Positions 3,028-59,300 of a stretch of DNA of 64,000 bases are shown here, piece after piece. The notes below the pieces were generated by a model. That model did not search any database. It was not told where the DNA came from and saw nothing but the letters and a program-made list of their open reading frames with translations. Positions within the stretch are counted from its first letter, which is position 1. Every line of letters starts with the position of its first letter. Source of the stretch: Antedon mediterranea. Taxonomy: Eukaryota > Echinodermata > Crinoidea > Comatulida > Antedonidae. Location: the NCBI RefSeq assembly GCF_964355755.1, contig NC_092677.1, positions 9,198,601-9,262,600 of the forward strand. The letters are read 5' to 3'. The position numbers were made by a program, and so were the translations under genes.

Positions 3028-6000
3028 TCATTCTGGAACTGGTTCATGATCCTGCCTGTGTTTGCCAACTGCATTTGGATCATGTGGAATCATCATTCTA
3101 TTGGTGTTTTCCGGTGGGCCTGGGTATGGAGGTGGTGGATCAGTTGGTTTCTGTTTAACAGGTGCACTAACGTGGCCTGATGTGGAGGGCTGGTTATTGG
3201 TAGGCTCTACAAGCTTAGGTGGCGAGGCAGACTCCTTTGAATTGCTCTTCCACACAAGGCTTTCTCCTACTTGCAGGGCTGGTCCAAGTTTACTACCAAC
3301 TTCAATCAGCTAAAATACATGCGATATTAAAACATATCTGGTTAATAATCCAGAACATGTAGTAGGAGAAATACTGATAAAGTATATATAGATGTAACTG
3401 AGATTTAATGGCTAACGTAAGATATGTCTAGTGAGTACAGTAATTATTTCAAATTTAAATTTTAAGGTCTGTCTACACTATCAAACTAGTTTGACAAAAA
3501 AAGTGTGATGTGCCTAAATAAGGTAGTGATATGTCCTCGTCCATACATGGCCACATCACATTTTTTTGTCAAATAAAGTTTGACAGTGTAGACAGAGCTT
3601 TAATTTATTAACAATGTATTGTATTAGTAAATAATACATACAATGTAGAGGTATATAGTTCAATTTTAGATAGAGCATTTAATCAAGTAATATTTTATAA
3701 TAAAAAATATAATATACAATCTAATTAAAAATCTACAGTATACCACATACCTCATAATCTATGTTAGAACTCCCAGACGCTTTCAACCGTTCCATTTTGT
3801 TTTCAAAATGAGCAAACTGTTTGGTTGCTGCTTTTCTGTCGCCTTGTTTGTACAGGAACACACAGAAGTTTAGATTTACCGCTGGATCTTTGCTGTGTTT
3901 AAAACAGAGGTATTATTTATTACACATCACTTTATGAAGCAATATAAGACTATGAAAGACTAAAGTGTGGTTCCAACTATAACGCATTGCAACACAGCGA
4001 CATATCAATGCAAAGACTTGTATTGCGTAATTCAAGTGGGAAACCAACAACGCAACAATGCTGCAAACATCGCTAAAGGAAATCAAATCAGTTTGGAAAA
4101 CATAGTACAGCAAATAGCCAAGTATGCAGGTCAAGGTATACAGCAACTAACATTGATGCACAACAAGCAGCTTTGATATCACGTAAGCAGGGGCAAACAC
4201 AATTATTGGAAGGGCATTTTCTTATGTTGCGTAGGTTGCGTTGCATCACTAGTGGAAACTAAGTTTTAAACATATATAAAATATTTGATAAGTTAGTTGG
4301 TTTCCTTTTTAATGCTCTCTCTTATAATGCTTACTTACTCTTCAATTGCTGCTGCTTGTTCATAAGCTTGCCTTGCATTATCAGGATCATCTAGGTTGGT
4401 TAATGTAACTACAAAAAAAAACAGACCTAGTGAAATATCCAAGAAACGGTGACATTGGGAATTGATATCATGTTGGGGAGGATCTATAACTTGATATCAT
4501 GATAAATTTATACCATGAGGGTGATGATGTACATGATATCATGAGAACAATGAACTTGGTATCATATTGATGGGAAGCATGAGAAGTGATATCATGTTGG
4601 TATGATAAATTGATATCATGAGGGTAATTACATACATGATAACATGACGAGGACAATGAACTTGATGTCATATTGATGAATCTTGCTTCCCATCAATATG
4701 ATATATCAAGTATATATATCATGTTGGGATGAATAACTTGATATCATATTGATTGGAAGCATGATGGTGATGAAGTATTTGATATCACGATGGTCTTGAT
4801 ATAATGAGGACAATGAACTTAGAGAGCATGAACTTGATGTTGAGGATGATAAACTTAATAGCATGATGGGGATGATGAACTTGATATCATGATTGAGATG
4901 ATGACCTTGATATCATGTTGGAGATGATGAACTTGATATCATTATGGAGATGACGAACTTGATATCATTATGGAGATGATGAACTTGATACCATGATAGG
5001 GATGATGAACTTGATATCATGACTGAGATGATGAACTTGATATCATGATGTAGATGATGAATTTATCATTATTATCAGCATTTAAAATAAATTTATAATT
5101 CAGAATAAGAACCCAACAAAGTTAAACTTCTCCACAGAATACTTACTCGCAAGCAGCATGTATGTGCCAGCATGCCTAGGACGGATGTTGATAGCAGCAC
5201 TAATGAAGTGGAATGCAGATGCATATTGATGCATGCTAAGGTGTACAAGGCCTAGGTTATACAAAACCTTCCAATCAAATGGAGATAAGTAATTGGCACG
5301 CTTCAGGCTACTTACAGCCTAACAAAAAAGAACAAAATATTTATTTTTTTAAATCTAGGAATAGTAATAAAAAGAAGGAAGTTGGTGTCATCCTCATTTT
5401 GAAAACTTAAATTTTTTGGGAAATCCAACATTATGGAATAGAACCTTGACCGTTTCTAGTGGACATCTATAATTGTACAACTCAAAATCTAAAACAGCAT
5501 CTGAAAAACATATACGGCATAACATAACATACAGCAAAATACTTTTTCCTTCCAAAAAAACACATGCCAATGTTGTTCCAGAGGGCAGCACTTTCTGGGA
5601 CAGCTACAGCGGCAATACGATATTTATTCAGAGCAACATCAAAGTCATTGTGTTCCTGCATCATGCTTCCAGCTGCCAAGATTGCCTGGGAAAGAAAACG
5701 AACGGCAGGAATACATTTATTTGCTTGGAAGAGTTTTTACAAAGTTTCAGTCACTAGTCATAACACTCTAACCCCATTCCAAATGGAGGTCAAAGTTTAC
5801 AACAACATATTTGAAAATATACCTAGTCCTACTTACCTTTACATTTGAAGGGTCGTAGGTCAAAGCATTTCCTAAGTTCTCAAAAGCCTTTTGGTTCTGA
5901 TTGATCTGTAAGAAACAACGGGTGATTCAAATAATGATTTTTAATCCAGAAGCTGAGTTGACATTTAAAAAAAGAAGCCATTTTATTTACTTTAGTGTTT

Positions 6001-9000: not shown

Positions 9001-9897
9001 GTATCACACACATGAATAATTTAATACAGGTAAAATAGGCATATTTATTGCCTTTTATCATAGGCCATAGAAAATCAAACAACCTTTTCTTGGTCTTGGT
9101 CTTGGCTGTTTTGATGGAACTGCAACTAGAGGAGGAGGTTCACTGACAGCGGGTGGGATCTTTACCGGTTCCTCTACAGCTTGCTATATATATAAAAATA
9201 ATGAAAATAATATAATATTAATAATATAAATAATTAGGTTAAAACATAGGCTGCAATTACTTGCTATTAATAGAATTATTAATCATAAATACAGTAAATT
9301 ATATTAACTATTTATTAATATTATTATAAATGAAAAATAAATTTCTCAGAAGAAAAAAATACACGAAAACAATTAGTTAGGGCCTAGGCCTACTAGTAAT
9401 TAAAGATATATTGTCCCTCTACAATTTTACAGAAGTGAAGAACTTATTAAAACTGCAAAATGGCGTAGGGTATTTAAAGTCTGATTTTATTAATTAATTA
9501 TTAAATCTTAATTTTTAATGTTTTAAGGGGACAACAATATGTCAATGGCCTAGCCTACCTACATCTTTTAATGCAGCAAAACTTAAAAGCTGTTCAGAAT
9601 CCTAATTACTGACAGCTAAACTCAGAGTGGCTCCAAAACGTTTAATCAATAATTAGGCTAGCCTCTCATTAAGCTGGTCTAGGCCTAGGCCTAGTTGTCC
9701 TGGATGGCCTGCTGGTGGTACGGTGGGGTGGGGGCTAGGCCTACCTAGAGGTCAAGCTATCTTTCTAGGCCTAGGATATGAGGCCTACCTAACTAGAGAT
9801 ACCTACCTAGCCTAGCCTACTAGGCCTAGGCCTAGGCCTACTAAAGATTTAGACATCATCTTACCCCCTTTTCACTGTCTTTCTGACCAGAACTCAT
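3028..9897 (-). CDS. BBS4: Bardet-Biedl syndrome 4 protein (BBSome TPR subunit)
   Basis: Coding exons, in transcript order: 9865-9897, 9084-9183, 8792-8871, 8303-8478, 7073-7199, 6358-6485, 6007-6061, 5837-5905, 5533-5685, 5147-5318, 4339-4408, 3751-3892, 3028-3309. All junctions are GT-AG and stay in frame for 528 codons; human BBS4 has 519. The tetratricopeptide region runs from about residue 70 to 430. Family hallmarks include [37 protein letters not shown] and [20 protein letters not shown]. The tail is Pro-rich and unstructured ([12 protein letters not shown]), as in vertebrates. BBS4 is a BBSome component that works with pericentriolar satellites in ciliary membrane traffic. Start: the ATG opens [11 protein letters not shown], just inside exon 1. 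Introns carry several repeats, listed separately. The gene call is secure; the first two exons are the least conserved part of the model. Confidence 0.95.
3462..3603. mobile_element. TTAA-type MITE (family A), complete copy
   Basis: A palindromic element of about 134 bp in the last BBS4 intron. The left end is GGTCTGTCTACACTATCAAA; the right end is its imperfect complement, ...GACAGTGTAGACAGAGCT. Both ends abut TTAA (3462-3465 and 3600-3603), consistent with a TTAA target duplication. The interior has GTGATGTGCC, GGTAGTGATATG and CACATCACA. The element has no coding capacity. Related copies: 2879, 16244, 22388, 24368, 25478, 34206 (fragment), 39247 and 45571. Confidence 0.75.
3961..4262. repeat. 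Dispersed repeat, family B copy 1
   Basis: In the BBS4 intron 3893-4338. It starts AAAGTGTGGTTCCAACTATAA and ends with the near-complement ...CTAGTGGAAACTAAG. Between them are repeated GCGTTG/CAACGC words. A second copy at about 24746-24900 shares AAGTGTGGTTCC, AACGC, CAGCGAC.TATC, GACGCAAAG and the CAAGTGGGA end. It is a probable non-autonomous inverted-repeat element; its class is unknown. Confidence 0.5.
4450..5075. repeat. Minisatellite in BBS4 intron (GATATCATG-rich)
   Basis: About 600 bp of imperfect tandem units built around GATGATGAACTTGATATCATG, with unit lengths near 25-50 bp. It fills most of the intron between coding exons 10 and 11. The best-ordered part is about 4860-5060. The core GATATC is itself palindromic. 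Confidence 0.8.
7285..7630 (-). mobile_element. LINE-type retrotransposon 3' fragment
   Basis: In a BBS4 intron. On the - strand an open segment (7411-7605) includes [18 protein letters not shown] and ends in SRWNSILR. This resembles the C-terminal end of LINE reverse-transcriptase ORFs, where a Phe-..-Leu-Arg-Arg..Ile-Tyr segment is common. The downstream sequence ends in an ATTGAATTGAATT run (complement, near 7308-7322), a typical LINE tail. It is truncated and non-functional. The family is not assigned. Confidence 0.45.
7790..7918. mobile_element. MITE family C, degraded copy
   Basis: Matches the well-preserved element at about 59785-60006 over CTTCTATGAATGGATG, GCTAGT.GA and ACCATACCCAGTACCGTTTT, followed by CAATCGGGAAATTACCTC. 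The left terminal repeat is not recognisable. Confidence 0.55.
9370..9850. repeat. TAGGCCTA/CCTAGG palindrome cluster in BBS4 first intron
   Basis: Runs of the 6-8 bp palindromes AGGCCT, CCTAGG and TAGGCCTA are densely packed at 9375-9395, 9660-9700 and 9760-9842, directly downstream of BBS4 exon 1. Similar clusters occur at 51030-51130 and 52920-53110 near the AARS1/LRRCC1 5' ends. Confidence 0.6.
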
Positions 9898-10601: not shown

Positions 10602-12443
10602 GGAGTATGGTCGAAGCGGCCGCCAACCAAAGCGGCCGCCAGTTTAATATCGTCATTTGTATGGAACGCCATGTGCGCTTTAATCTTTGATTGTGATTGT
10701 TGATTTAAGTTTGCCTGCTTGCCGATAAATCAATGTATATTTTATTTGTATTCACTATTAACTAATACATAGGCCTCTATCGAAATATATTTTGCCGAAT
10801 CTTTATATCTCGTTTACATACTATTGGATCCTTATACAGTAGTATTGCAATAATAATTTACGTATACGGTATTGCCGAATCTTTATATCTCGTTTATATA
10901 CTATTGAATCCTTATACAGTATTGCAATAATAATAATTTACGTACGTTATTGCCGAATCTTTATATCTCATTACATACTATCGAATTTTATACAGTCTTG
11001 CAATAATAATTTACATACGGTATTGCCGAATATTTATATCTCATTTACATTTAACTATCAAATTTTATACAGTATTGCAATAATAATTTACGTACGGTAT
11101 TGCCGAATATTTATATCTCATTTACATTTAACTATCGAATTTTATACAGTATTGCAATAATAATTTACGTACGGTATTGCCGAATATTAATATCTCATTT
11201 ACATACTATCGAATTTTATACAGTATTGCATTAATAATTTACGTACGGTATTGCCGAATCTTTATATCTCGTTTATATACTATCGAATCTTTATACAGTA
11301 TTGCATTAATAATTTACGTATACGGTATTGCCAAATCTTTATATCTCGTTTACATACTATTGAATCTTTATACAGTATTGCAATAATAATTTACGTACGG
11401 TATTGCCGAATCTTTATATCTCATTTTTACATACTATCGAATCTTTATACAGTATTGCATTAATAATTTACGTACGGTATTGCCGAATCTTGATATCTCA
11501 TTTGACATATGTACTATTGAATCTTTATACAGTATTGCATTAATAATTTACGTACGGTAATGCCGAATATTTATATCTTGTTTACATACTATCGAATCTT
11601 TATACAGTATTGCAATAATAATTTACGTACGGTATTGCCGAATATTTATATCTCATTTACAGGTACTATCGAATCTTGGTTTTTATTATTCAATAGTAAT
11701 AGCAGGGAAGAGTTAAATTACACTCTTCCCTGGTAATAAGGTGTGTTATACATTTAAGTGTTATTCCATTGTAATACATTGTTTGTGTTTTCAATAAAGC
11801 AACATGGGACGCGCACCAAATGTGCAGCAGCACTATTGCTGGCCGTCAGTCGAGTTATTAGCAGAAATTCGCGTAATTAATTACCGTATCAAACAGACAC
11901 TTTCATCTTATTTTAGTATTTAAAACTCATTTTCAATTGATCAATATTTAAATATCTGAAGTAATAAAATAGTGTAGAATATTAAATAAATTGCTGTCAT
12001 CATGTTATTGTAATTAAATTATGATTGCGAACACTACTAGTTACTTTACTAATTAATTAATATAAAATAACAAATATTTTTAATTATTAATATATTTATA
12101 TATTTTGATATACTTTATTGATTGGTTTATTTATATAAACACCACAATGTATTTTATAGACTTTATTAAACATATCATTTAGAACAGTTAAAATAAGTAA
12201 TCATCGATTCGCCATTTCGTTTAAAAGAACGTACGCGTATTACATTCAATCTGTAAAAAAAAAGAGAATAAGTTACATAATAATGTAGATTTTTATTTAC
12301 GTCCGAGGTAAAGAAAACCTGTCGAAACAATGACAATCAAAGATTACAAAACAACGACAATCAAAGCGCACACGGCGTTCCATACAGATTACCGTTATTG
12401 AACTAGCGGCCGCTTTAGTTGGCGGCCGCTTCGACCGTAATCC
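10602..12443. mobile_element. Long-inverted-repeat DNA element A with 8-bp target duplication
   Basis: Flanked by a perfect direct 8-mer GCATCTAG at 10594-10601 and 12444-12451. The left end starts GGAGTATGGTCGAAGCGGCC and the right end (complement) GGATTACGGTCGAAGCGGCC. The inverted arms run about 100 bp and share two GCGGCCGCC blocks plus TGTATGGAACGCC and TGTGCGCTTT. The centre is a tandem array (separate entry). There is no transposase ORF. It is a non-autonomous element; the 8-bp duplication fits hAT, P, Merlin or TU/foldback-type transposition. Confidence 0.85.
10788..11690 (+). repeat. Tandem array of ~77-bp units inside element A
   Basis: About 12 head-to-tail units of about 75-80 bp. 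Each contains TATTGCCGAATCTTTATATC, then TACATACTATCGAAT, then TTATACAGTATTGCAATAAT and AATTTACGTACGG. Units differ by point changes and small indels. The short ORFs here are translations of the repeat and not genes. Confidence 0.9.
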
Positions 12444-14882: not shown

Positions 14883-23434
<8,552 letters not shown>

Positions 23435-42574: not shown

Positions 42575-45500
42575 TCAATTTTTAAGTTTAAGATTCGCGA
42601 ATTCTGTAGCCATCTTTAAAACTTGATCTATTGCTTCGATCTTGTCGCCGACTGCTTGAGCAGACCCGTCTTTCCCGCCACCTTTACCACCGATTACATC
42701 CGAAACATGTTTCACCCATTCATTAGCTTTTAATCCTTTACTAATTGTGCTCTAAAAAAAGAGAGATTAAATAATAAATAAATAAATTTTAATGAAAGCC
42801 TAAAAAAAGTTATCTCATTTAAACTTCATTTTTTAGTTTTAGAGATCTTAAGCAATAGGCTAACAAAAGTTTGTTAGCTTTACATTATTCAGATTATATG
42901 GATTAGGCCCCCAACAGCAAACCACAGCAACTAGTGAAGCGTCTACCATCAACATATTCTTCCGAAAGATGTACTGGGATCTTTAAAGTGCACACAAGCA
43001 AGATGTGTACACATATCGACCTCCACTTTTAAGTCCTTATCTGTGAACAATTGTTCTACCACCAGAACATGGTTGAGGAGAGCCCTTAACATGTGCCAAA
43101 TGTATGGCTACTATGGTTTGCAGTACCCCTGCCCTAACGGCCACTCGACTCGACGCGGGTATGGTATTGCAGAACAAAACAGTACAGTATTACAAAATAA
43201 TAAAACATACCTTTGGAACTTGGGCAAGACATAATATTTTACTATTTTCCTTGTCAACACTAACAAACATTGCTGGCGTTTCCTTGGCACCCTTCTGATA
43301 CTCTTTTAGAGCGCCATCTAGAGCTTTGTTGTTTGCTTCTACGTCGAGTTGGACAACAAGATATGGTTTGTCTTTGGAGTCTTCAACTAATTTTTTAGCT
43401 TCGTCTTTTCCCTTTAAAATAATTTCAAATCATTCCAATATTCAATTTGTAGTTGTCGGAAAAATTTAGTGTATATCAAAAAATATTTCTTTTAATTCTC
43501 TAGACTAGATGGTAAAATGTGGGACATTTTGGACAAAGCTTAGTTTTGGGAGAGCTACCAGTTTTCAGGCTTAGGCTTAAGTGTGTAGCTTAGGCCTAGC
43601 CTAGATTCTTAATTTTCTAAATGAAGGCTGGCGACCTAGTGATAAGACCCAGGCCAACCTGTATATTTAAGGCTTTATTTAAAATAACAAATAAAAACGA
43701 ATAATTCACAATTTGCAAATATAATTTTACTGAAATTCACTTTACTACATTCTCAAAAAATCATGGCGAGATCATTCTCTGGCATGATTTTGGTAAACTT
43801 ATGATATCATACTTCCACTGATACTTAATGTCAAAAGAGGGAACGCCATAATGCCACTGAACAAGGCTCAGATTTGCCAGTTGAGGTGCCAGTTGCCTAC
43901 AGCATATCATAAAAATGACGTAATAGGGTAGCAGTAGACAGGAACATCTAAAAGTCCCTATTGTTAAATGGAAGGCGAGTATAAATTAGGTGTACCCACA
44001 ATGCACCAGTACTTACTTTTTGTATAAGAGCTGCCTTTCTTGCCTTATCAAGGTCATCAAGAATCTTTTTAAGATCGGCCAGTTTTTGTCGCATCTCATC
44101 TTTGCTCCATTGTGAAATTGTTGCTATGTTTAAATCCTGCACGCAACAAAAGTAGTTGTAATAAAATAAGTAAATACATAATTTAATTTTGTTAATTTTG
44201 TATCCAATAAAAATTTATATTGAATATGGTGTACAATTGCACTCACGTTTCCAATATCCACAATTAGTTTTGTGAGTTCTTTCTTTGTGTAAGCACCAGT
44301 TTTTTCATTTTCTTTGATCGTTATACCAAGCTTGTCAATCTGTGAATCAAGACCTGCGGCACGTTTCACTGCTTTTTCACCTTCTTCACCGGTTACGGCC
44401 ACGATCCTACGAATACCCTTGGCTATGGCTTCTTCAGTGGAGATGACAAACTGACCAATGTCTCCAGCATTCTTAACATGTCTGTAAAACAGATTTTTCT
44501 GTTTACTTTAAAGGTTAGGTATACTGCTGTATGTATTTCGGTCTGGGTATGTATAAAGGGTCTTTTTAACAGAAACCAACAAATTATAAATTTTGAGTTA
44601 ATCTTTGCATTACATGGGTATATAAAGGTCAAAGGTTGCCATTTCCCTTTGGTGGAGGAAGTTAAATAAATCTTTAATTTACGGTTAAATCGCTCAAAGG
44701 TTAACGTACGTTCCACCGCAAAACTCAACAGATGTTAATGTTCCTGCTGGATTGTCCGGGTCTTCCACAAGAGTTTCCACAGGAATACCGATGGAAAGAA
44801 CACGTACTGGGTCTGGATATACCTGAACAACAATACCAATAATTAAATAACAAAATATCACTAACTGGGCTCTTATATCTTATCTTAACTTATTTTAATA
44901 AAAGATTATCCACATATCTCATCAAAATCTGTATATTAAAAATATATATTTACTCATATTTATGTGTAGTGTGTTAGACGAAAATTCTGTGTAATCAATA
45001 GGACCTTACCTCATCAAAGACTGCTCTCAGGCCTTGAATAGCTTTGGCAAGAGCCAGGGGAACATTCTTATCGTAAACAGTCTCTCGTTTTTTAATTATT
45101 TCATTTGCAATCTGTTCTGCTTCCTTTATCTGAGCTGTAGTCATTGCACCCTTGAAAGAAAGGTTCATATAAGGTAATAAAAACATACAAAAAAGGTTTA
45201 AAAAATATAGAGCATAGGATATAATTTTTTAAATGTATGTACATTGGTATTCTTGTTTTTCTATCTTTTGACTTCGAAGTTTGAATTTGATCTACACCTT
45301 GTCTATGCTGGTCACACATGTTTTGGTTCGTCTTACCTTAGCAGAGAAGTCAAATCGTAGCCGATCTGGAGCTACCAAAGACCCTCTTTGATCCGCCTCA
45401 CCGAGCACTTTCCTGAGGGCAAAGTTCAGGACGTGTGTAGCAGTATGGTTGCTCATAACAGGCCTTCTACGAATCTAAATACAAAACAAAATCTTCAATT

Positions 45501-48500
45501 TGAATACAATAGAACCTCTATTGAAGGAATACCTTTTAGAAATGACAAAGTGGGTTGGTCATAGTGTTAGTTTTGTCTTCACTATCAAACTAGTTTGACA
45601 AATATGGTAGTGATATGCCCAAATATGGTAGTGATATGCCCAAATATGGTAGTGATATGCCCAAATATGGTAGTGATATGCCCAACCATGGTAGTGATAT
45701 GACATCACTGTGTCCTCGTAATAAGGTTTGAATTTGTCACAAAGGAGGGGTTTTACTGTATAACCATAAGACTCTGAATATACGCATTGACACTACGAAG
45801 TGTTTGGTGTCAATTTGTAAATTTTAATTATAGATTAAAATAATTTCTCATATACCTCATCTATCATAAGTTTAAATTTATCTCCAACTTTGATTCCGTC
45901 ACCGTCAACAGCAGATACTTTTCCAACATGTAGTACATAACCACCTTTTACTTGAACATTAGTGACACGAAATTCTACATTCTGTAAAAAATTAATTATA
46001 TCAGATATCATATTTACTGTAAGTCATAGATTAGCCATCTAATTGACATAAAACATAGCAATTTTACCTACCTAACAAGAATTATCTAAAAATGTATACC
46101 ATCTATGCTAGAGTGCACCTTTTATTAATTTTAACTTAAATAATATATAGTACAGTTGTTAAAGGCCAACTCAGACAGCATCGTACCAAAAGAAATGTCT
46201 TGACTCGTCAGGCTATCTGAGTTGTCTTGAGATAGCGACGGATGTAGTTTTGATGTCGCTGGGAGAACATTAAACATGTTTAACTTTCTCCGGACAAGAC
46301 GACTTGTCGTGCCTCGTCGCTGCCTGGGTTGACCATAAGACTCTTTTGGTTCTTTTGTGTTTTTTTATGGATGGATAAATCAGAAATAAAAGAAATTGAA
46401 TTGAAAAAATTGCAAGAAATTTCCAAAAGAAACGTAAGAAATGTAGTTAGGAATAATATATTAACCATTCCTAAATTGCCATATTTGACTTGTTTTTTTT
46501 TGTTATTTAAAAGTAAAATAAACAACTTACAACATTTCCTTCCTTCTCCATGAATCCTTCATCATAGATCTGACCTCCTTGCTCTGCATAGAAACAAGTC
46601 TGGTCCAACAGCACACCACACTCATCACCATTATCAACCTTCTCTACAAACCGTTTGTCTTTTCGGATTGCTATAACAGTTCCTACTGTAGACTCAAAAT
46701 CTGCACATAAAGATATAATAAAAGCACTAAGAAACTAATTGAAGTACTTAGCAATATATATCAGGGAAAACTATATTTGGAGAGAGATGGCTCACTACTT
46801 GATATTTCAGTTCATTTTAAAATAATACATAGGCTATTTAATATCTCATATGGAAGATACAGATATATATATTTTAATATAAGCTTTTTTGAAGTGACCA
46901 ATTTATCAAATTTTCTGAAAATCAATAGGCATGTTCTGTAATATACCAATTAACACTTAAACATTCAAGACGATAACAAATTGTGGACGCTATCGTACTA
47001 ACAAACAAATCAAGTAATACAATCTTACACAACACAATAAAAAACAAATGGATGCTACAAGAAATCTAAAGTCAAATAAGCTGAAAAGCAATGTTATGGG
47101 CAATCATGTTATTATGGACAACCGGAATGCTTTAAGCCTGAAGTTATATCTGCACTTTGTGTATCACCTTTCAAATAAAGATTGAAGACACTTTCACAAG
47201 TACACTCTGAAAACTAGACCAGTCATAAACTAACTATGAGTGCTATATCACAATCACACTCACTGTAAAATCCATTGTCTCTAGTGTAGTTATATTTAAG
47301 TAGATCATTCGTTGGAGGGACCTTTCTCTTTTCCTTCAGTTCATCAATAGCATAAACATCCAAGCCGATAGTATCGTCCACTCCAGATCCCTTCCCTTGG
47401 GATTTCAATTGAGCAGCTTTCTTCTCCGTGTTGTACTCTTTCTGATCAACAGACATTCCTTTCTCTTCCACCATTAATTCCGTCAAATCCGGAGGGAAAC
47501 CGTACGTGTCGTATAATAACCATGCGGCCTTGCCTGATAGTGGACAAAAGTTATACAACATTTTTACAAAAATTGGTAACATGACTTTTTACTATACACT
47601 TGTCAGCTTTATAATGTAATTTTTTGAAAGAATTTTTTACAATACTTAATCATTTGTCCATTTTATAATATACAGTAGTTATTATTTAAGGTTTGCTAAT
47701 AAAGATTTTCAAATAAATACATTAATCATATCTGAACTGTCACCATATTCACAATAATGAACTAACCTGGGAAAACCTTAGTAGAATCCCCTAATTTGTT
47801 AATGGTACGCTCCAGAACTTTCCTGCCTCTATTGAGTGTCTTAAGGAACTGTGCCTCCTCATCATTGATAATGTCCATTACCATCTGTGGATCTTTTCTA
47901 ACCTCTGGAAATGCATCTCCCTAAAAAACATATCATTGAATACTATTACACTGGACAGTATCTGCTTTTAAGGTTTTTATGCTTGTATTACGGATTCCTG
48001 CTGGCACTGGCAAAATCCAATTCAAGTATATGATATAAAACACTTGGGGTCATTGGTTCAAATCCTGTTGAAAGTCATTCAGGTTATACTCTTTTGTGAA
48101 TAGGAATTATTACTTAACAATAGGAATTACTACTTAGTACTTACCAATACTTGCACAACAACTGGAATGAGCGTTGCAAATTTGCCAGGACTGGCGCCAA
48201 GCTTTTCTGTGATGTACCTTACACCTCTTCTAAGAACCCTCTTTAAAACATATCTAAAAATATTTTTCAAAAACTATGTTGAGAAATTCTCAATTTTAAA
48301 ATAATCATATACAGAAACAGTAGAAAATGACACCTCAAGCCACAACAAAGTTTCTCTCTAAAAGGGGTGTCTCCTAAATAGGGGTTGGTAGCAGTATTAG
48401 GACATATAATGTTCCTTATTTGTTTCACATGCAAATGTGCCCTTAAAATGGGTGCTATTAAATAGAAATGCCCAAAGGGGTTGGGATTTTACTGTAGTTA

Positions 48501-50233: not shown

Positions 50234-51146
50234 GATGCTTTTGTATTTCTGAATCGATAAACCTAAAAATCATAAATTTTAAAAAATGAAAATAATATTA
50301 ATTATTAAATTATTATTAAAACAATTAAAAATATGTTTACTTGATACAACACTTCTACAAGATAGAGAAACCTTAAATATGGCACAAGTGATTTTGCTTG
50401 GAAGGCCAAGGTGAGGAGGTGACCTTCCCTAGACCTAGTCCGTGTAGAGAGCCTAGTTAGGTTAGTACAGGACCGTTAGTACTAGCTAGCTAGCTAGCAT
50501 TGGGTTTGGGCCTAGAAAATGTATTCTAACTTTTCTTTATTTATTACTTACAAAAAGTAAATTTAAATCAATCTGCTGGGCCTATGCATTTTATTGATAA
50601 TGTAATATGCGTTAAAAATAAAACCTGATAAATAGAAAGCGGAATTATCGTACAAAATACTGTAGCCTTACCTACGAATTAGTCACAACGGTAATCCCCT
50701 TGTGAATTGTACTCTGATTTCATCAGCAACGTGTTTTTGTATTGAAAACCAGAATGACGTAACCGAAGTGAAATGTATAGCTATTGACACGACGGTTCTG
50801 TATTTTCAAAAAAGGTATGCACGCGGCGCGCGGCGGAGGAGGATCGGAGTAGAACAGTTGCCGTGTCGATAGCATCAACATTTTTTTTAGAATATGGCGG
50901 ACGATACAAATTGACCGCGGGCAAATCAAAATACAACCTTTTAAATGTATCTAAATAGTAATACTAGGGTTTAGTTTAAAAATATGGTACCAAGATGGTA
51001 ATCAGGATAAATATGTATGTTATATTTTATAGTAGGCCCTAGCCTAGGCCTAGGCCTAGGCCTATGCGAATTTTAATTATCTAGGCTAGGTATAAGCCCA
51101 GCTAGCCTACTAGGCCCAGGGCCAGGCCTAGACTCCTCCTCCTAGC
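50234..51146. other. AARS1 upstream region with TAGGCCTA cluster
   Basis: AARS1 5' untranslated and promoter sequence. A GC-rich patch at 50818-50860 (CACGCGGCGCGCGGCGGAGG) is the most likely promoter core. 51030-51130 is a dense run of AGGCCTAGGCCTAGG palindromes. No ORF is supported. Confidence 0.4.
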
Positions 51147-52916
51147 GGGATCCAGTCAAGTCGCCCCATCGCAAAGTCGCCCCATACAAAGTCGCCCAAT
51201 ACAAAGTCGCCCCATCGCAAAGTCGCCCCAAAACAAAGTCGCCCCGGCACAGTCGCCCCATCGCAAAGTCGCCCCATTACAAAGTCGCCCCATCGCAAAT
51301 TCGCCCCATTGCAAAGTCGCCCCAACGCAAAGTCGCCCCATCGCAAAGTCGCCCACGGTTTTAATCATATTGGTTGCGTTTGATATCGATTGCGTTGTTA
51401 CTTTGGCATGTCGTATACAGTATGTTTATCCTATATACATAATTTGTGTTTTAATTTTTATTTTACAGGTTTTAATGGAGTGATGTGCTTTTTATTAAAA
51501 ATCATTAAAAAAATAGTCCCTTGTTTGAAAGTTCTAAAAAGATTAGGCCTATACCTGATTTATAGTTTCGAAAATGTTAATTTAATATGATTTTAAAATT
51601 AGTTACCAGAGCCACAATTACGAATCTTTCTTCAACCTACGCGTGGATACCAGCTAATTTTTTAGGATAATATAATAAATGTATAAATGTGTAGTAGCCT
51701 AGGCCTTCCTATAGATTTACAGTAGTTAAAACAATAACAGTGTTGTAAGATAATGAGTGTTATAGGCTACTTATTGATCATTTTGCATTTATTGACAAGT
51801 TATGTGTCTTAATTTTATAATGACTTTTCAAAATAAAGAAATTAAAAAAAAAAGGATTTCATCGCCGATATGATTGTTTTACATGCAGGTATTTTAGTAA
51901 AATTAAAACGCTACATTTTGACCATGGAAAAACCATCGTACAGTATCGTGTGCGTGTTTTTTAAAAAGGGGAATCCCCGACGGTCAGCAGAAAGACGGCG
52001 CAGTTCCGATTGGTTTCAGAGAATGTTTCAGATGGCGAGTCGCCTTTTATTCAATAGCACAATGATCATTTTACTGAAGAAATTCTTTTCAACCCCTTTG
52101 GTTAGGCCTAGAACATTCTAATTATCATGCCTAATAAATATCCTCATATCGGGTATTTATTTAATTTTAAATTAAACAAGACCGTGAAGAGGCACGGAAT
52201 AATACGTACACGGACGTACGACGAATACACACACGCACGTCATCATTTACGACATATAGTGGTGATATGATGCAATTTTATAATGGATATAATGATGGGA
52301 TTGCCTTTCCAGGCTTACAATCAATGTTCATTACGTAATACTATGTATATAATCTAGATCGTATAACATCATTTTATCGCGACCAAATTTAAACGCGACC
52401 GATTTCGAACGCGACTGATATCATCGTAAAACTCCGGCGGGGTTTCCCCATCTTCAGATGGTGCGTTGTAGTGCGACAACGGCGGAGTAATTACGGGGGT
52501 TTCCCTCTGGTAAGAAGCTAGCACGTTAGTGCGACCGCGGAGTGATTAGTCGGGGGCTTCCTCTCTGATGATGGTGGTGCGTGCCGATCGTGTGACCTGA
52601 GACTACTGTACATGGCGGGGCTTCCCCTTTTTATGCCTACACGTTCCGTGTTATTTTGTGTATCATTGCGACATTTTACGCACTTGTAAACTATTTTTTA
52701 ACGTTTTGGGGCGACTTTGCGATAGGGCGACTTTGTGATGGGGCGACTTTGCGATGGGGCGACTTTGCGTTGGGGCGACTTTGCGATGGGGCGACTTTGC
52801 GATGGGGCGACTGTGTCGGGGCGACTTTGTTTTGGGGCGACTTTGCGATGGGGCGACTGTGTAAGGGGCGACTTTGTATGGGGCGACTTTGCGATGGGGC
52901 GACTTGACTAGCATCC
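51147..52916. mobile_element. TU-like foldback transposon with satellite-type inverted repeats
   Basis: 1770 bp, flanked by perfect direct 8-mers CTCCTAGC (51139-51146 and 52917-52924). The ends are GGGATCCAGTCAAG and (complement) GGATGCTAGTCAAG. Each is followed by about 13 tandem 14-16 bp units (GTCGCCCCATCGCAAA): the left array is about 51160-51356 and the right array, inverted, about 52706-52908. The order of unit variants in the outer half is the same in both arms. The 1.35-kb centre has no transposase and contains two or three degenerate GCGAC..CGGAGT.ATTA blocks at 52420-52560. This layout (tandem short-unit inverted repeats, 8-bp duplication) is that of sea urchin TU and fly foldback elements. 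Confidence 0.92.
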
Positions 52917-52924
52917 CTCCTAGC

Positions 52925-53355
52925 CTAGGCCTAGGCTAACTAATAAGGCTTAGGCTAGCTAGGCTAGGCCTAGTTTAGTATTAAATATAAACTAGGGCCT
53001 AGCTAGGCCTACTAGTGAGTACTAGGCCTGGATTTAAAGTTTAGGCCTAGCCTAGGTAGGGCCTAGCTAGCTAGCTAGGCCGTTCGTAGAGGCATATTTT
53101 CGTAATTGAGTGCGGGCCTAGGCCTAGAAGTTATTTTTGCTACTTGCACCGAGTGATAAGGTGGATTTTGGTAGGCCTAGACCCACAGATTAGAAAAGAT
53201 CATGAGACGTTTGAAGAATGTGATGATAGTTAATCTATCTCAGAATTTGTATTTTAGACTTTAAAACAATAACAACATTTTATTGATGATGGATAGATAG
53301 GCCTACTACATAATTAATAGTAATAATAATACTAAAACTATTTTTTTTTTTGTAG
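52925..53355. other. LRRCC1 upstream region, TAGGCCTA-rich
   Basis: Densely packed CCTAGG, AGGCCT and GCTAGC palindromes at 52920-53110, then AT-rich sequence and a pyrimidine tract ending TTTTTTTTGTAG at 53355. LRRCC1 therefore probably has a non-coding first exon upstream that I cannot place. Confidence 0.45.
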
Positions 53356-53383
53356 GAATCCTTTGCATTAAATTGATTGCATT

Positions 53384-56300
53384 ATGACTGGACCGGAAAT
53401 ATTTCATGTGAAATTGACTGGCTTGTCACAAGATACAAACATGGACCCTGATAAACCACATGAAATTTGTCTCATTGATGCTGGTGTCACCAGCCTACTT
53501 GATGTTCCATTGGTTGGCCACATCCAAACATTAAACCTTCACTGCAATGAGATTGGCATTATTGAAAATCTTCAATATGCAAAGTATCTAAAACATCTGG
53601 ATTTGTCATCCAATCAAATTGCAGAGATCCAGGGTCTTGAGTCACTGATGTCATTGCGAACTTTGAATCTGGCTTGTAATGATATTGTGCAGGTCAAAGG
53701 TCTTAAGAATTTAAGGTACAGCTATGGGTACCACACAGGCTTGTAGAAAATAGGTTTTTATGTGAAAGTGATTATAACATAACGTATAGTTACAAGTAAA
53801 AATCTCAAGATTGTTTAACAAAGGTTGAAGTTTGATAACGGCAAAAACAATATTTATGGTGACTTCAGTCAGTGTATATGATGGTGGTTGTGAGCGACCA
53901 GCAGAGTGGCAGTGATGATGATTACTGTAATCAGTTGATGATGATTGTGATGGTTTTTATAAACATGTACTTCGATTTTACTTCCAGGAGCCTCACAAAG
54001 CTAAATTTGTCCTACAACCAAGTGAATAACCTCACTGGCCTAATTGAGCAGCATGGCCCCAGCTACAATCTCAAGAACCTAGAGCTGCAGAGCAACCATC
54101 TGGACAACTTCAGCCATGTTGTAAGCTGTCTTACAGGATTACAAAAGCTGAAAAATCTGATGCTGTCAGAGCCAGCTGGAAGCAACCCACTTTGTGATCA
54201 ACCAGGTATATATTGGTTATACAGTCACCTTTCCCAATACTGTACACCTTTGGGCTGGCAAAATACATCTGGTGGTATTCGTAATGTGTTTTATTGTTAA
54301 AAATAAATTTGGTACGGTTTGAAAATTCTGGTATTGGGAGAGTTTACGGTTTAAGATAAGTCGGATTTGGGTGTGCTCAGTACATTGGTTATATTGTACA
54401 TCTGCTAAACCAAATTACAAGTAATACACCTTGACACCTTACATTTTCAAATTGCTTAAATTACTTTTCTTAGGCTATCAAACTGGACTCTTGAACTCAC
54501 TGCCACAGTTACGTGTTTTGGATGGTTATGACAGGGCAGGTAAATTGGTGAAGAAGCAAGATGGCTTAGCAGAAATACCAGGTTTGGAGCAAATAATAAT
54601 GATAATAATAAACAAACATACTGAAAAAGTACAATTGAAAACCAAGAAAGACATCAAACAACTTAAAGAACTAGCCAATGAAAGATCCGATTGGAAGAAA
54701 CTGTCAAAAGAGAATTACGAAGCAGCCCAAGCGGAAATGTCACTAGACTTTTCAGCGGAGAGGCAGTAATCAAATCAAATCAATCGCTGAAAAAGTACAA
54801 TATAATTGTGAAGAACAATGGCTTGAAATTCAATTAAATACTAAATATGAATTCATATTTTGTTAGAAAATGAGAAATGCTTTAATCAAAATTACTAATA
54901 AATAAACGTTTTAAAGTGTTGTATCATTTTAAGGGCTTGAAGATTATTTGGAGTACCTTGTTTCTAACCAATCTGTGAGCAGCAGTCAAGAGGCGTCATT
55001 ACCATTGATCACGCCAAAGATTGACGAAGCTCTGGAACGTTTTAGGTCACGTGTTATATCTACCAACGTAGAATCCAGCACAGATTTCACAGACAATGTG
55101 GAAATCCAGGCTGGTATCCTGAAGCCATTCTCTAAGAGGAAAGATGTAAGTTAGAGAATGATACTATTAAAAAAAAACCTCAATTAATAATTCTAATAAA
55201 TCTCTCCAATTAGGACTCCTTATAATTAAATGTAACTGAAATCAAAAGGTTGTTCATTACAGCTTTTCTGCCAGAATAACAAGCTTAAGTTTCTTTCTAA
55301 ATAGAGACCAAATTGCATTGAACCACTAAAACTCTTGTTGCGAGAGTGTTCTTTTATTAGACCTTAAGTAAAATGTATGCATAATCTTATTTTATATGCA
55401 GTTTCCTGCCTACCATAATACTAAGCTTTCATTATCTTTTACAAAACAATACAGCTCTATGCTATGGTAAATAAATTTGAAATAGAATTTTAGATTAACA
55501 TTGACAACATTAATTATTTTTAAAGACTGATGTCCATGTGTCGATGGTAAAATCTACCCATGAGAAACGCATTGAAAACTTAGAGCAACAACTTGCTTTT
55601 ATGGTCGAGGAACGAAAGAAAGCTGAGGTACTCAATATCAATCGTTTTATCGTGCATTAGACTTTATATTGTATTGATGATAATTTGTTGTTATTTCTTG
55701 TTATTGTTAATTTACTTAGACAAGGAACTCAACAGATACTTCTATACATAGTGAGGTTAAGAAATCGGGGAAGATAAGTTGTCCAAGGGGTCTAGGAAAA
55801 ACTGGTAAGATGATATGGTTAAAAAAATGATAAGTTTCTTGCTTAAGTTGAGACCATTCTTGCATTTCATGCATGTCTAATTTTGTTGTATCACCCCCTC
55901 TATATTTATCTTATTTTGGCCCAGTAGTAATTTTTTTGTAAGAATTGATATTTGCCATAAATACAAAATCTGACTGTCTGATCCTGTTTTTCAACTGATA
56001 TGCTTGGGGAACATAATTTAGCTTTACCACAAATAGGAAAAGAAGTTTGTTAACCTGCATCCATGACAAGTTTTAAGTTTTTTTTAATACAAACTTTACC
56101 TATGTTATATTTTGGTATATTCTGACTATTATCATAATTGATTTATCATCATGTATGATGTATGTTAGATAGTGACAATAGTGAAAGTGAAACCAGGCAG
56201 CAAATAAAAACCAAAAAGAAACCAACAAGCAAATCAGTAACAACCAAACCAACAACTAGAAAACACCACAGTGAACAAATAAAGTCAAGTAATCAACCGG

Positions 56301-59300
56301 ACACTAGGTAATGATAACGATTAAGGTCATCGGTTGTATTTGAGTATCAAATTGGCAAATAACTGTCAATGATTTTTAATATTGTTAAAAACAAAAAGTT
56401 GTTACTAGATTGTAATTGTATAAACTATTTATTATAAAATAGTATTGTAATTTAAATTATATTAATTAAATGTATAAAAGCCTATATTGTATATGGTTGT
56501 TGCAGTTCTGCAAACTCAAGATCGGCCAAAAGAGCAAAGTCCAAATCTACCAGTAGCTCTCCAAACAGTGACTTTCACGCTCAGAAGTTTCCTAGCAGAG
56601 TTGTTCCAACAACAGCAGAGCAAGATTCAGACAAACTAGCCTTAATGCAGGAGTTAGATGGGGAAAGGGAGAGAAGATGGAAAGCAGAGCAAGCTGCAAG
56701 GAGACTAGCAGAGCATATTCAAGATCTCCAGAGTAAATGTAAGCGAATACTGTATTCAACAGTGGTTGCAGGATAATATTCCACAATGGTTGTTGGATTT
56801 TTAGAATGAAAGCAATATTTTTTTATTTAGGAAGTTTATGAAAAATGGTTTTAAGTATTTTAGGCTTAATAAATTTGTATTAGCAAAAAAATGTGTCTCT
56901 AGAGCTCTAGATTATAGTCCAAGTGAGGACAATAAATGTGCAAACTGTTACTTGTTGTTCCTGATCAGGATAGAGAATGTGATTTACTTACAATAATTTA
57001 AGATAATTTTGTCAATTTTATTTCCATTTTTTAGACAATTAAGTGCATTTGTTTTTTATATGTAAACGAATAAATATTGTAAGCTATGAATACCATTTAT
57101 TTAATATTTTTTAAGAAAATAATTCTAACGATTTCTGATTGTGTAGTAAATGATGAGCATGAGGTCCAAGACATAGCTATTCAAGCAACTACAAGACTGA
57201 AGCAGGCTTTGATGAATGAGAAAGAGGTCAAAGGCAAACAAGATATAATCATTGAAGAACTCAGGGTAAATGTTATCTATTTCAATATTATATTATTCTA
57301 ATATTATTGTCTTCTTTAAAACCGGATTATTTGTGTGCATATTTGAGCAATTTAGAACTAAAATTCATTTTCAATAAATTGAGCGGAAACGTGTAATGTA
57401 CATGTTATGTACAAATAAGTATATGTTATATTATATAAATCCAAAGTCAAAATACTGAAAAAAAATGACAATGCTGTGGGTATCAGTGGCTGGATTTCAA
57501 TAGAGATTTAAAAAAAAAAGCGAAAAGCTAAATCAAAACGATAAAGTAAAACAGCCAGAAAAGTTAGCAGAGCTTTCTGCCAACACTAGCCCTTCATCAG
57601 TGCAAATAAAGGTACTTGGACAAAGATAGATAGATATAAATAAACTAAATTTTAAATTACAGATTTCTTTGCACACTTACATATTGGAAATTGCATGCAA
57701 CACATTTGATTATTTTCTTTTCTTAACAATCCTTACAAATAAACATAAATAGAAAAACTAATGGGCTTTTATGTACTTTTGTTTTCAGAATAAAGTTGAG
57801 GAATTAACTAAAAGGTTAGAATCTAGTGAAAAAGCCGAAGAAGAGGAAAGGAGGGCACTACGGGCGATGGAAAGCACAGCAACAAAAGTGGAAAGAGAAC
57901 GACTACAGCAACAAGCACACGATGTATGTAGTAGAACCATTTCAGGTGTGGCAATTGTCAATGTGACTTTGTGTCAACGAATCTCTCTCCTAGTAAACCA
58001 AAAGTGGCCTAGTAGTAGAGCGTAAATTCATGCACTCTTCTATCTTCAAGAAATCTGGAGAAATTTCACCTTTAGTGGGAGATGGTATTGGACAGTTAGT
58101 CACTAGTCACTACTAATCTAGAGACTTTAAACAAAAAACGTCATATGATTTGAACCCACTGCAACAAGACTGAAGGCAATCCACCAAACCAGTATAATTC
58201 CAAATATTGCAGTTAATTGATTGTTTTAGTATGTGATTAAACATGTTGGTTTTTTGCAGTCGAAACGTACTCAGGAATATCAGATGAGAGCGGCTGCTAC
58301 TGCTCGGGAGTTGGAACTCGTTCGTAACCAAGCCAAGCAACTTGAAGGCAAGGTGCAACAACTACAGGAATTGCTGGCTATCAGGGAACAGGAACATAGG
58401 TAAGAAAGACGATGAAGAATATGCAGAGAAGTCGAAAAAAGAAAACTTATAATTTAATTCTAAGAGGTCTCCAGTATACAGAACAAATAAATAATAAGTT
58501 AATTGTTCTCTTTCAGAGAAAGCCTTAAAAATTGTCACAGTATTGACAGTACAGAGGTCAAAGATGCTGTGTCAAAGGCCGTCTCAACAGAATATGAAAG
58601 ACATCAAAATGAACAGAAACATTACAAGGAAAAGTGAGTTAAGCTAAATATTTTAAAGGAAAAATTAAAATTTATTTTTTTTTATTAAGAAGCAGCAAAA
58701 GATATATTAGTATTTTTGCCTATAAGCACTTTATTATCCCAGTCATTTTTTATCAAACATGCATGGAAACCAGGTACCCATTTGTTCATCTTGGTAGAGT
58801 TAGGCAAACGTAAGGAAAGTGTCTTTCCGAAAGATATAATCAATGCAACGAAGCTTAGATTCGATCAATAGTCCAACACACTGTCCTCACATGAATTTAC
58901 TTTTTGTTTTGTAGAATTGATTTATTGGCCAAACAGTACTCTGATCTAGAAGATGAATTCAGAATGGCACTCAAAATTGAAGCTGGCAGATTTCAACAGG
59001 TATAGATATTTACAGATTTCACAACCTAAAAAAAGAAACTTTACAAAGCATGGCCAAACCATAGAGGTTGCTATAATTCGGAAATACATCCAAACACTAA
59101 CGCTATTTTAAGACAATCGGCATCTATTAGTACTCAATTGGTATGCCAGAGTGATTGCATATGTTGATGTGCATTTTGTGTTTGGTTAACCAATGCATTT
59201 TTCGGCCTTTAGTAACAAAAAGGGACATGCTATTCGAGCTTAAATGGTAAATTTATGAACTATAGGGATGTTTGTTTGTATATCCAAAACAATTCTCCTT

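Follow-up and report, generated by a model that had tools for sequence, protein, structure and literature searches.

Target duplications of 8 bp are made by hAT and P elements, and they also flank the TU elements of sea urchins, whose outer domain consists of tandem repeats of about 15 bp. In root-knot nematodes, Tm1, a Mutator/Foldback element of the Phantom type, has composite arms of 13–15 bp units with asymmetric outer motifs, and its FLYWCH-MULE transposase is found in a single apparently intact copy along with many non-autonomous and MITE-like copies (PMC3169594). Phantom MULEs of animals encode a transposase with FLYWCH and MULE domains and make 8–10 bp duplications, while the MULE-related Rehavkus elements have a PHD finger, a minisatellite beside the terminal repeat and 9-bp duplications (PMC6446971). 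In Galileo, by contrast with these, the transposase is of the P type (PMC3169594, PMC3573991).

Here we describe a satellite-armed foldback family with a TU-like design from Antedon mediterranea. The family is tied to an apparently intact MULE transposase of the same genome, which makes recognition of the arms testable. The starting point was a single element in the window, i.e., the whole stretch of 64,000 nucleotides that was analysed.

Structure of the window element

The element is situated between two divergently transcribed genes, with start codons about 0.9 kb and 0.46 kb away. On its left are minus-strand exons of alanyl-tRNA synthetase (match to PF01411), and on its right is a plus-strand leucine-rich-repeat gene with its start at 53384, which fits the neighbours named in the initial annotation. 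The 8-mer CTCCTAGC is present twice, and direct reading gives a spacing of exactly 1770 bp between the two copies (Table 1). An Rfam search of window positions 50300–53400 gave no matches.

The two arms are inverted with respect to each other over 201 nt (51154–51354 and 52709–52909) and are 94% complementary, i.e., terminal or subterminal inverted repeats as expected for MULEs. Each arm is an array of 12–13 units, mostly of 16 bp with exceptions of 14–15 bp. The outer seven unit variants follow the order ATCGCAAA, ATACAAA, x, ATCGCAAA, AAAACAAA, GRCACA, ATCGCAAA, and the arms agree in six of these seven, a match that was equalled in only 8 of 100,000 shuffles of the unit order. The order of the inner units is not alike in the two arms. 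No transposase is evident in the centre, where the longest wholly internal open frame has 91 codons, and GC-rich near-repeats can be read there. The initial annotation had described a foldback element with satellite inverted repeats: 1770 bp between copies of an exact 8-mer, arms of about 13 tandem units of 14–16 bp with a common order of the outer seven and diverged inner units, and a centre with GC-rich near-repeats and no transposase. As a description of structure this was correct.

Table 1. Features of the window element (positions in the window).
Feature	Position	Strand	Basis
Target-site duplication, left (CTCCTAGC)	51139–51146	.	Identical to 52917–52924
MULE foldback element, non-autonomous, 1770 bp (best reading)	51147–52916	+	Termini and length as in L002–L004 (97% identical, other chromosomes)
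Left terminal motif GGGATCCAGTCAAG	51147–51160	+	168 intact left termini across the genome
Left arm, 12–13 units (A)AGTCGCCCCATCGCA	51158–51354	+	Unit reading, arm comparison
Inner degenerate array, left; two units at 16-bp spacing, similar to AACGCGACCGATTT	51360–51396	-	81% to second foldback family, E 3.5e-4
Centre without transposase; in part collinear with second-family interior sequence	51397–52370	+	Frame reading, alignment
Inner degenerate array, right; three units at 16-bp spacing (CGCGACCRATTT)	52371–52425	+	87–88% to arms of the second family, lowest E 1e-16
Near-repeats of about 60 bp, GC-rich	52430–52640	+	Direct reading
Right arm, 12–13 units, reverse orientation	52707–52905	-	Unit reading, arm comparison
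Right terminal motif GGATGCTAGTCAAG (reverse complement)	52903–52916	-	168 intact right termini across the genome
Target-site duplication, right (CTCCTAGC)	52917–52924	.	Identical to 51139–51146

A dispersed family with asymmetric termini

The centre of the element recurs across the genome, with 87–97% identity over long stretches among the 40 of 532 candidate places that were scored. Four copies, the window copy and L002–L004, form a 1.77-kb subtype; they are 97% identical and are found on four chromosomes with unlike flanks. The other copies are mostly about 220 bp longer than this layout.

A genome-wide search for the termini, divided over four patterns, identified 336 intact termini, 168 of the left type and 168 of the right type, and the reversed pattern used as control gave 0. 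The termini form 127 facing pairs (64 left-right, 62 right-left and one left-left), so that a left type is joined to a right type in 126 of 127, whereas 82 of the 336 termini are unpaired. Pair lengths are mainly 1.9–2.2 kb, with a minor group near 0.7 kb. The two termini are asymmetric (GGGATCCAGTCAAG and GGATGCTAGTCAAG) rather than identical inverted repeats. Such asymmetric outer motifs on tandem arms of short units are what is expected of Tm1/Phantom-type elements.

In copies where both ends could be read, the 8 bp directly outside the termini were perfectly duplicated in 26 of 37 and matched at seven of eight positions in three more, which is within the 8–11 bp known for MULEs; with shuffled flanks, no copy matched at seven or more of the eight. 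One copy (L013) is inserted into the end of a second repeat, and the uninterrupted form of this end is seen at L057 and L059, which constitute a paralogous empty site for the insertion. Around L013, AGATGAAA is duplicated with one extra A on one side.

A long relative with a MULE transposase

The initial annotation had proposed looking for relatives with a transposase between like arms, and one was found. This long terminus pair of 8911 bp (L040; contig C7:5449136-5458049) has both termini of the family, the same order of arm units and a perfect 8-bp duplication, CTATTAGA, and its arms differ at about 2–4 of 112 sites from those of other copies. Its interior contains a predicted gene of eight exons with GT-AG borders, encoding 642 aa without a stop; the model was spliced by hand from the GT-AG sites and is predicted from sequence alone. 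In a Pfam search the protein matched the MULE domain PF10551 above the cut-off (E 1.1e-12), so that a MULE-domain transposase is present in a putative autonomous member with the same termini. The match to FLYWCH (PF04500) was just under the cut-off of 23.6 (E 2e-4, 21.9 bits) and that to PHD (PF00628) was weak and below cut-off (E 0.017). The same search gave none of the P or THAP matches that would be expected of a P element or Galileo.

A decayed second copy of the L040 gene was found at L045, and a terminus of the right type with a few units comes after it. The genome has further MULE genes that are 34–62% identical to L040 over the searched exon. One of them (L052) adjoins a related 16-bp array, which is only suggestive of a tie between gene and array.

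With like termini, a like unit order and an enclosed MULE gene in L040, the window copy is best read as a non-autonomous MULE foldback element. We consider it highly probable that it is such a copy, most likely moved by cut-and-paste with a MULE transposase supplied from elsewhere. A transposase of the L040 type would be made at another locus and act in trans on the window copy. It would recognise the two asymmetric termini and probably the tandem arrays behind them, and the element would be cut out and then pasted into a new site with an 8-bp target duplication. Trans supply, array recognition and the cut-and-paste route are what we infer for this family, with the L040 protein as the presumed mobiliser and the 16-bp units as putative transposase binding sites. 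The window copy is no simple deletion derivative of L040, since a comparison of the L040 interior with that of the window family gave nothing significant (best E 0.012).

Several other long candidates were rejected as autonomous copies. L031 with L032 (16.9 kb) and L035 turned out to be family copies split by a nested foldback type with GCGAGGCA units (L031:484 to L032:6809, and about 2050–4050 in L035). The nested element in L031/L032 has a 9-bp duplication (AAATTAGTT), and a 15-kb element with GCGAGGCA units has frames of 507 and 310 codons without a Pfam match. L034 and L036 are family copies interrupted by inserts in which no transposase was recognised, the interiors of L042 and L043 are retrotransposon-like sequence, and L041 has good termini and a duplication, but no transposase was found in it. 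L033 spans 9.2 kb between a pair of right-type arms, but these arms are set within a different inverted repeat of about 390 bp and it has no MULE match, so it was discarded too. A frame beside a right-type arm in L033 (275–817) gave a weak match to Bcl-2 (E 5e-4, below cut-off).

Relationship to known foldback systems

The family groups with Mutator-like/foldback elements such as Tm1, and nematode Tm1 is best read as its closest precedent in design. Both have asymmetric terminal motifs, arms of short tandem units, a rare MULE copy that is autonomous or putatively so, one transposase copy that looks intact, and many copies of non-autonomous and MITE-like form. Unlike in the window family, the duplication of Tm1 is mostly 9 bp, and the unit sequence is also different. 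At its N-terminus the L040 protein model carries an additional PHD-like region (PHD match below cut-off), and the window-family centre appears to hold remains of another foldback family, both unlike Tm1. Likened by features alone, Phantom elements resemble L040 in the MULE domain and the length of the duplication, and the FLYWCH match of L040, just below cut-off, would fit them as well, although a PHD-like region is not listed for Phantom (PMC6446971). Rehavkus is near in design, but its 9-bp duplication differs from the 8 bp seen here and its only minisatellite precedes the 3' end, which sets it apart by description only. Galileo and Foldback of Drosophila share long, internally repetitive arms with the window family, whereas the Galileo transposase is P-type and that of L040 is MULE. 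The family is real, well supported and new; the MULE foldback kind is already known.

The element might be a foldback of another kind, P-element-like as Galileo or hAT, with the L040 MULE gene as a chance passenger, and hAT and P elements likewise leave 8-bp duplications. Foldback-like ends have moreover arisen in several superfamilies (PMC3169594). Yet the L040 gene sits within intact termini of the family that have a perfect duplication around them, the decayed second copy of the gene likewise runs into a family terminus, and no other transposase was seen among the long copies examined, in which L042 and L043 held retrotransposon-like sequence; a passenger gene is therefore a very remote prospect. 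Membership in the sea urchin TU family proper, to which the outer domain of ~15-bp tandem repeats and the 8-bp duplications would equally lend themselves, seems unlikely to us; TU and the window family are alike in arm design and duplication length as compared by description only.

Inheritance of the arms

The common order of the outer seven units had been taken by the initial annotation to mean that the arms were copied or homogenised as whole blocks. For the window copy this would imply recent gene conversion between its arms. We compared 14 non-autonomous copies of canonical layout without gaps over 112 sites per arm; the gapped alignment of arms gave means that were muddled by unit indels. 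Left arms differed from other left arms at a mean of 0.57 sites and right arms from other right arms at 0.65, whereas left and right arms differed at 4.5 sites within one element and at 4.3 between elements. Four sites have nearly fixed differences between left and right arms across copies. In unit 6, the left arm has CGGCACA and the right arm CGACACA; of the first 100 unit-6 places listed, 92 had an intact terminus no more than 200 bp away, and the variant tracked arm type in 89 of these 92.

Since left arms are closer to other left arms than to their own right arms, the shared unit order is ancestral and was passed on with each arm, not produced by recent exchange within a copy. The arm-specific variants thus mean that an element hands down its array order, instead of the order being kept equal by conversion. 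Homogenisation within copies is contradicted for the period since the family spread, and recent block-wise conversion inside the window copy is accordingly most improbable; block copying holds for a distant ancestor only. The arms of L040 speak on the other side. They differ from each other at 1 of 112 sites and have in common a unit-2 variant that is absent from the other copies shown, so that a slower equalisation is possible, and arms may have been equalised over a longer time scale in some lineages.

Origin of the centre

Inside the outer arms there is a second, degenerate inverted array with units at 52379, 52395 and 52411 (plus) and at 51369 and 51385 (minus). A second, separate foldback family has arms built of these same units. 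An exact 28-mer of this second family was found at 189 places, often as facing pairs about 1.4–2.8 kb apart, and the interior of the family is partly collinear with the window-family centre (68–76%). From these shared inner arrays and the collinear interior, the centre appears to descend from the second family, with the present arms added outside or exchanged. The inner arrays thereby hint at how foldback elements may swap arms.

One could go further and view the window family as a composite, in which an earlier foldback element, armed with 16-bp GAAATCGGTCGCGTTT units of its own, acquired a new outer pair of arms that a different MULE transposase recognises. Non-autonomous foldbacks would then switch transposase by concentric stacking of arrays, with both families targeting CTAG-rich patches. 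We put this forward tentatively, as a possibility somewhat less probable than its opposite. The separate family (L057–L060; G000 C1-C11) has 16-bp GAAATCGGTCGCGTTT units and ends near GGTGTCAGATG, and two of its copies are also at CTAG-rich insertion sites.

Insertion sites

Insertions of the window family are found in patches rich in CTAG and GGCC, with CTAG enriched 6.4-fold within 100 bp and GGCC 4.6-fold. The density of CTAG is 1.9 per 50 bp beside the element and about 0.3 beyond 250 bp, and CTAG was more frequent near than far in 23 of 29 copies, the reverse being seen in 4 of 29. The insertion site in the window is the centre of a CTAG patch with 21 CTAG in 208 bp, while only 1.9% of 200-bp stretches have four or more. 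The simplest reading is a target preference for CTAG/GGCC-rich patches; another is that insertion favours open chromatin in which such patches happen to lie. Read as a target preference, the CTAG bias is testable.

Only a few places in the window look like the insertion site, namely CTAG-rich patches at about 9500–9800, 43450–43700, 50300–50650, 50900–51250 and 56150–56400 (coordinates with the element removed). The window also contains tandem arrays of other units, namely a 26-bp unit at 4845–5061, a 77-bp unit in about 11.6 copies at 10792–11677 and a 21-bp unit at 45599–45701. Finally, a short array of 16-bp units, AGGGACGATTCAGCCC, is seen at 15143–15193 and may be what is left of an arm of a further foldback element.
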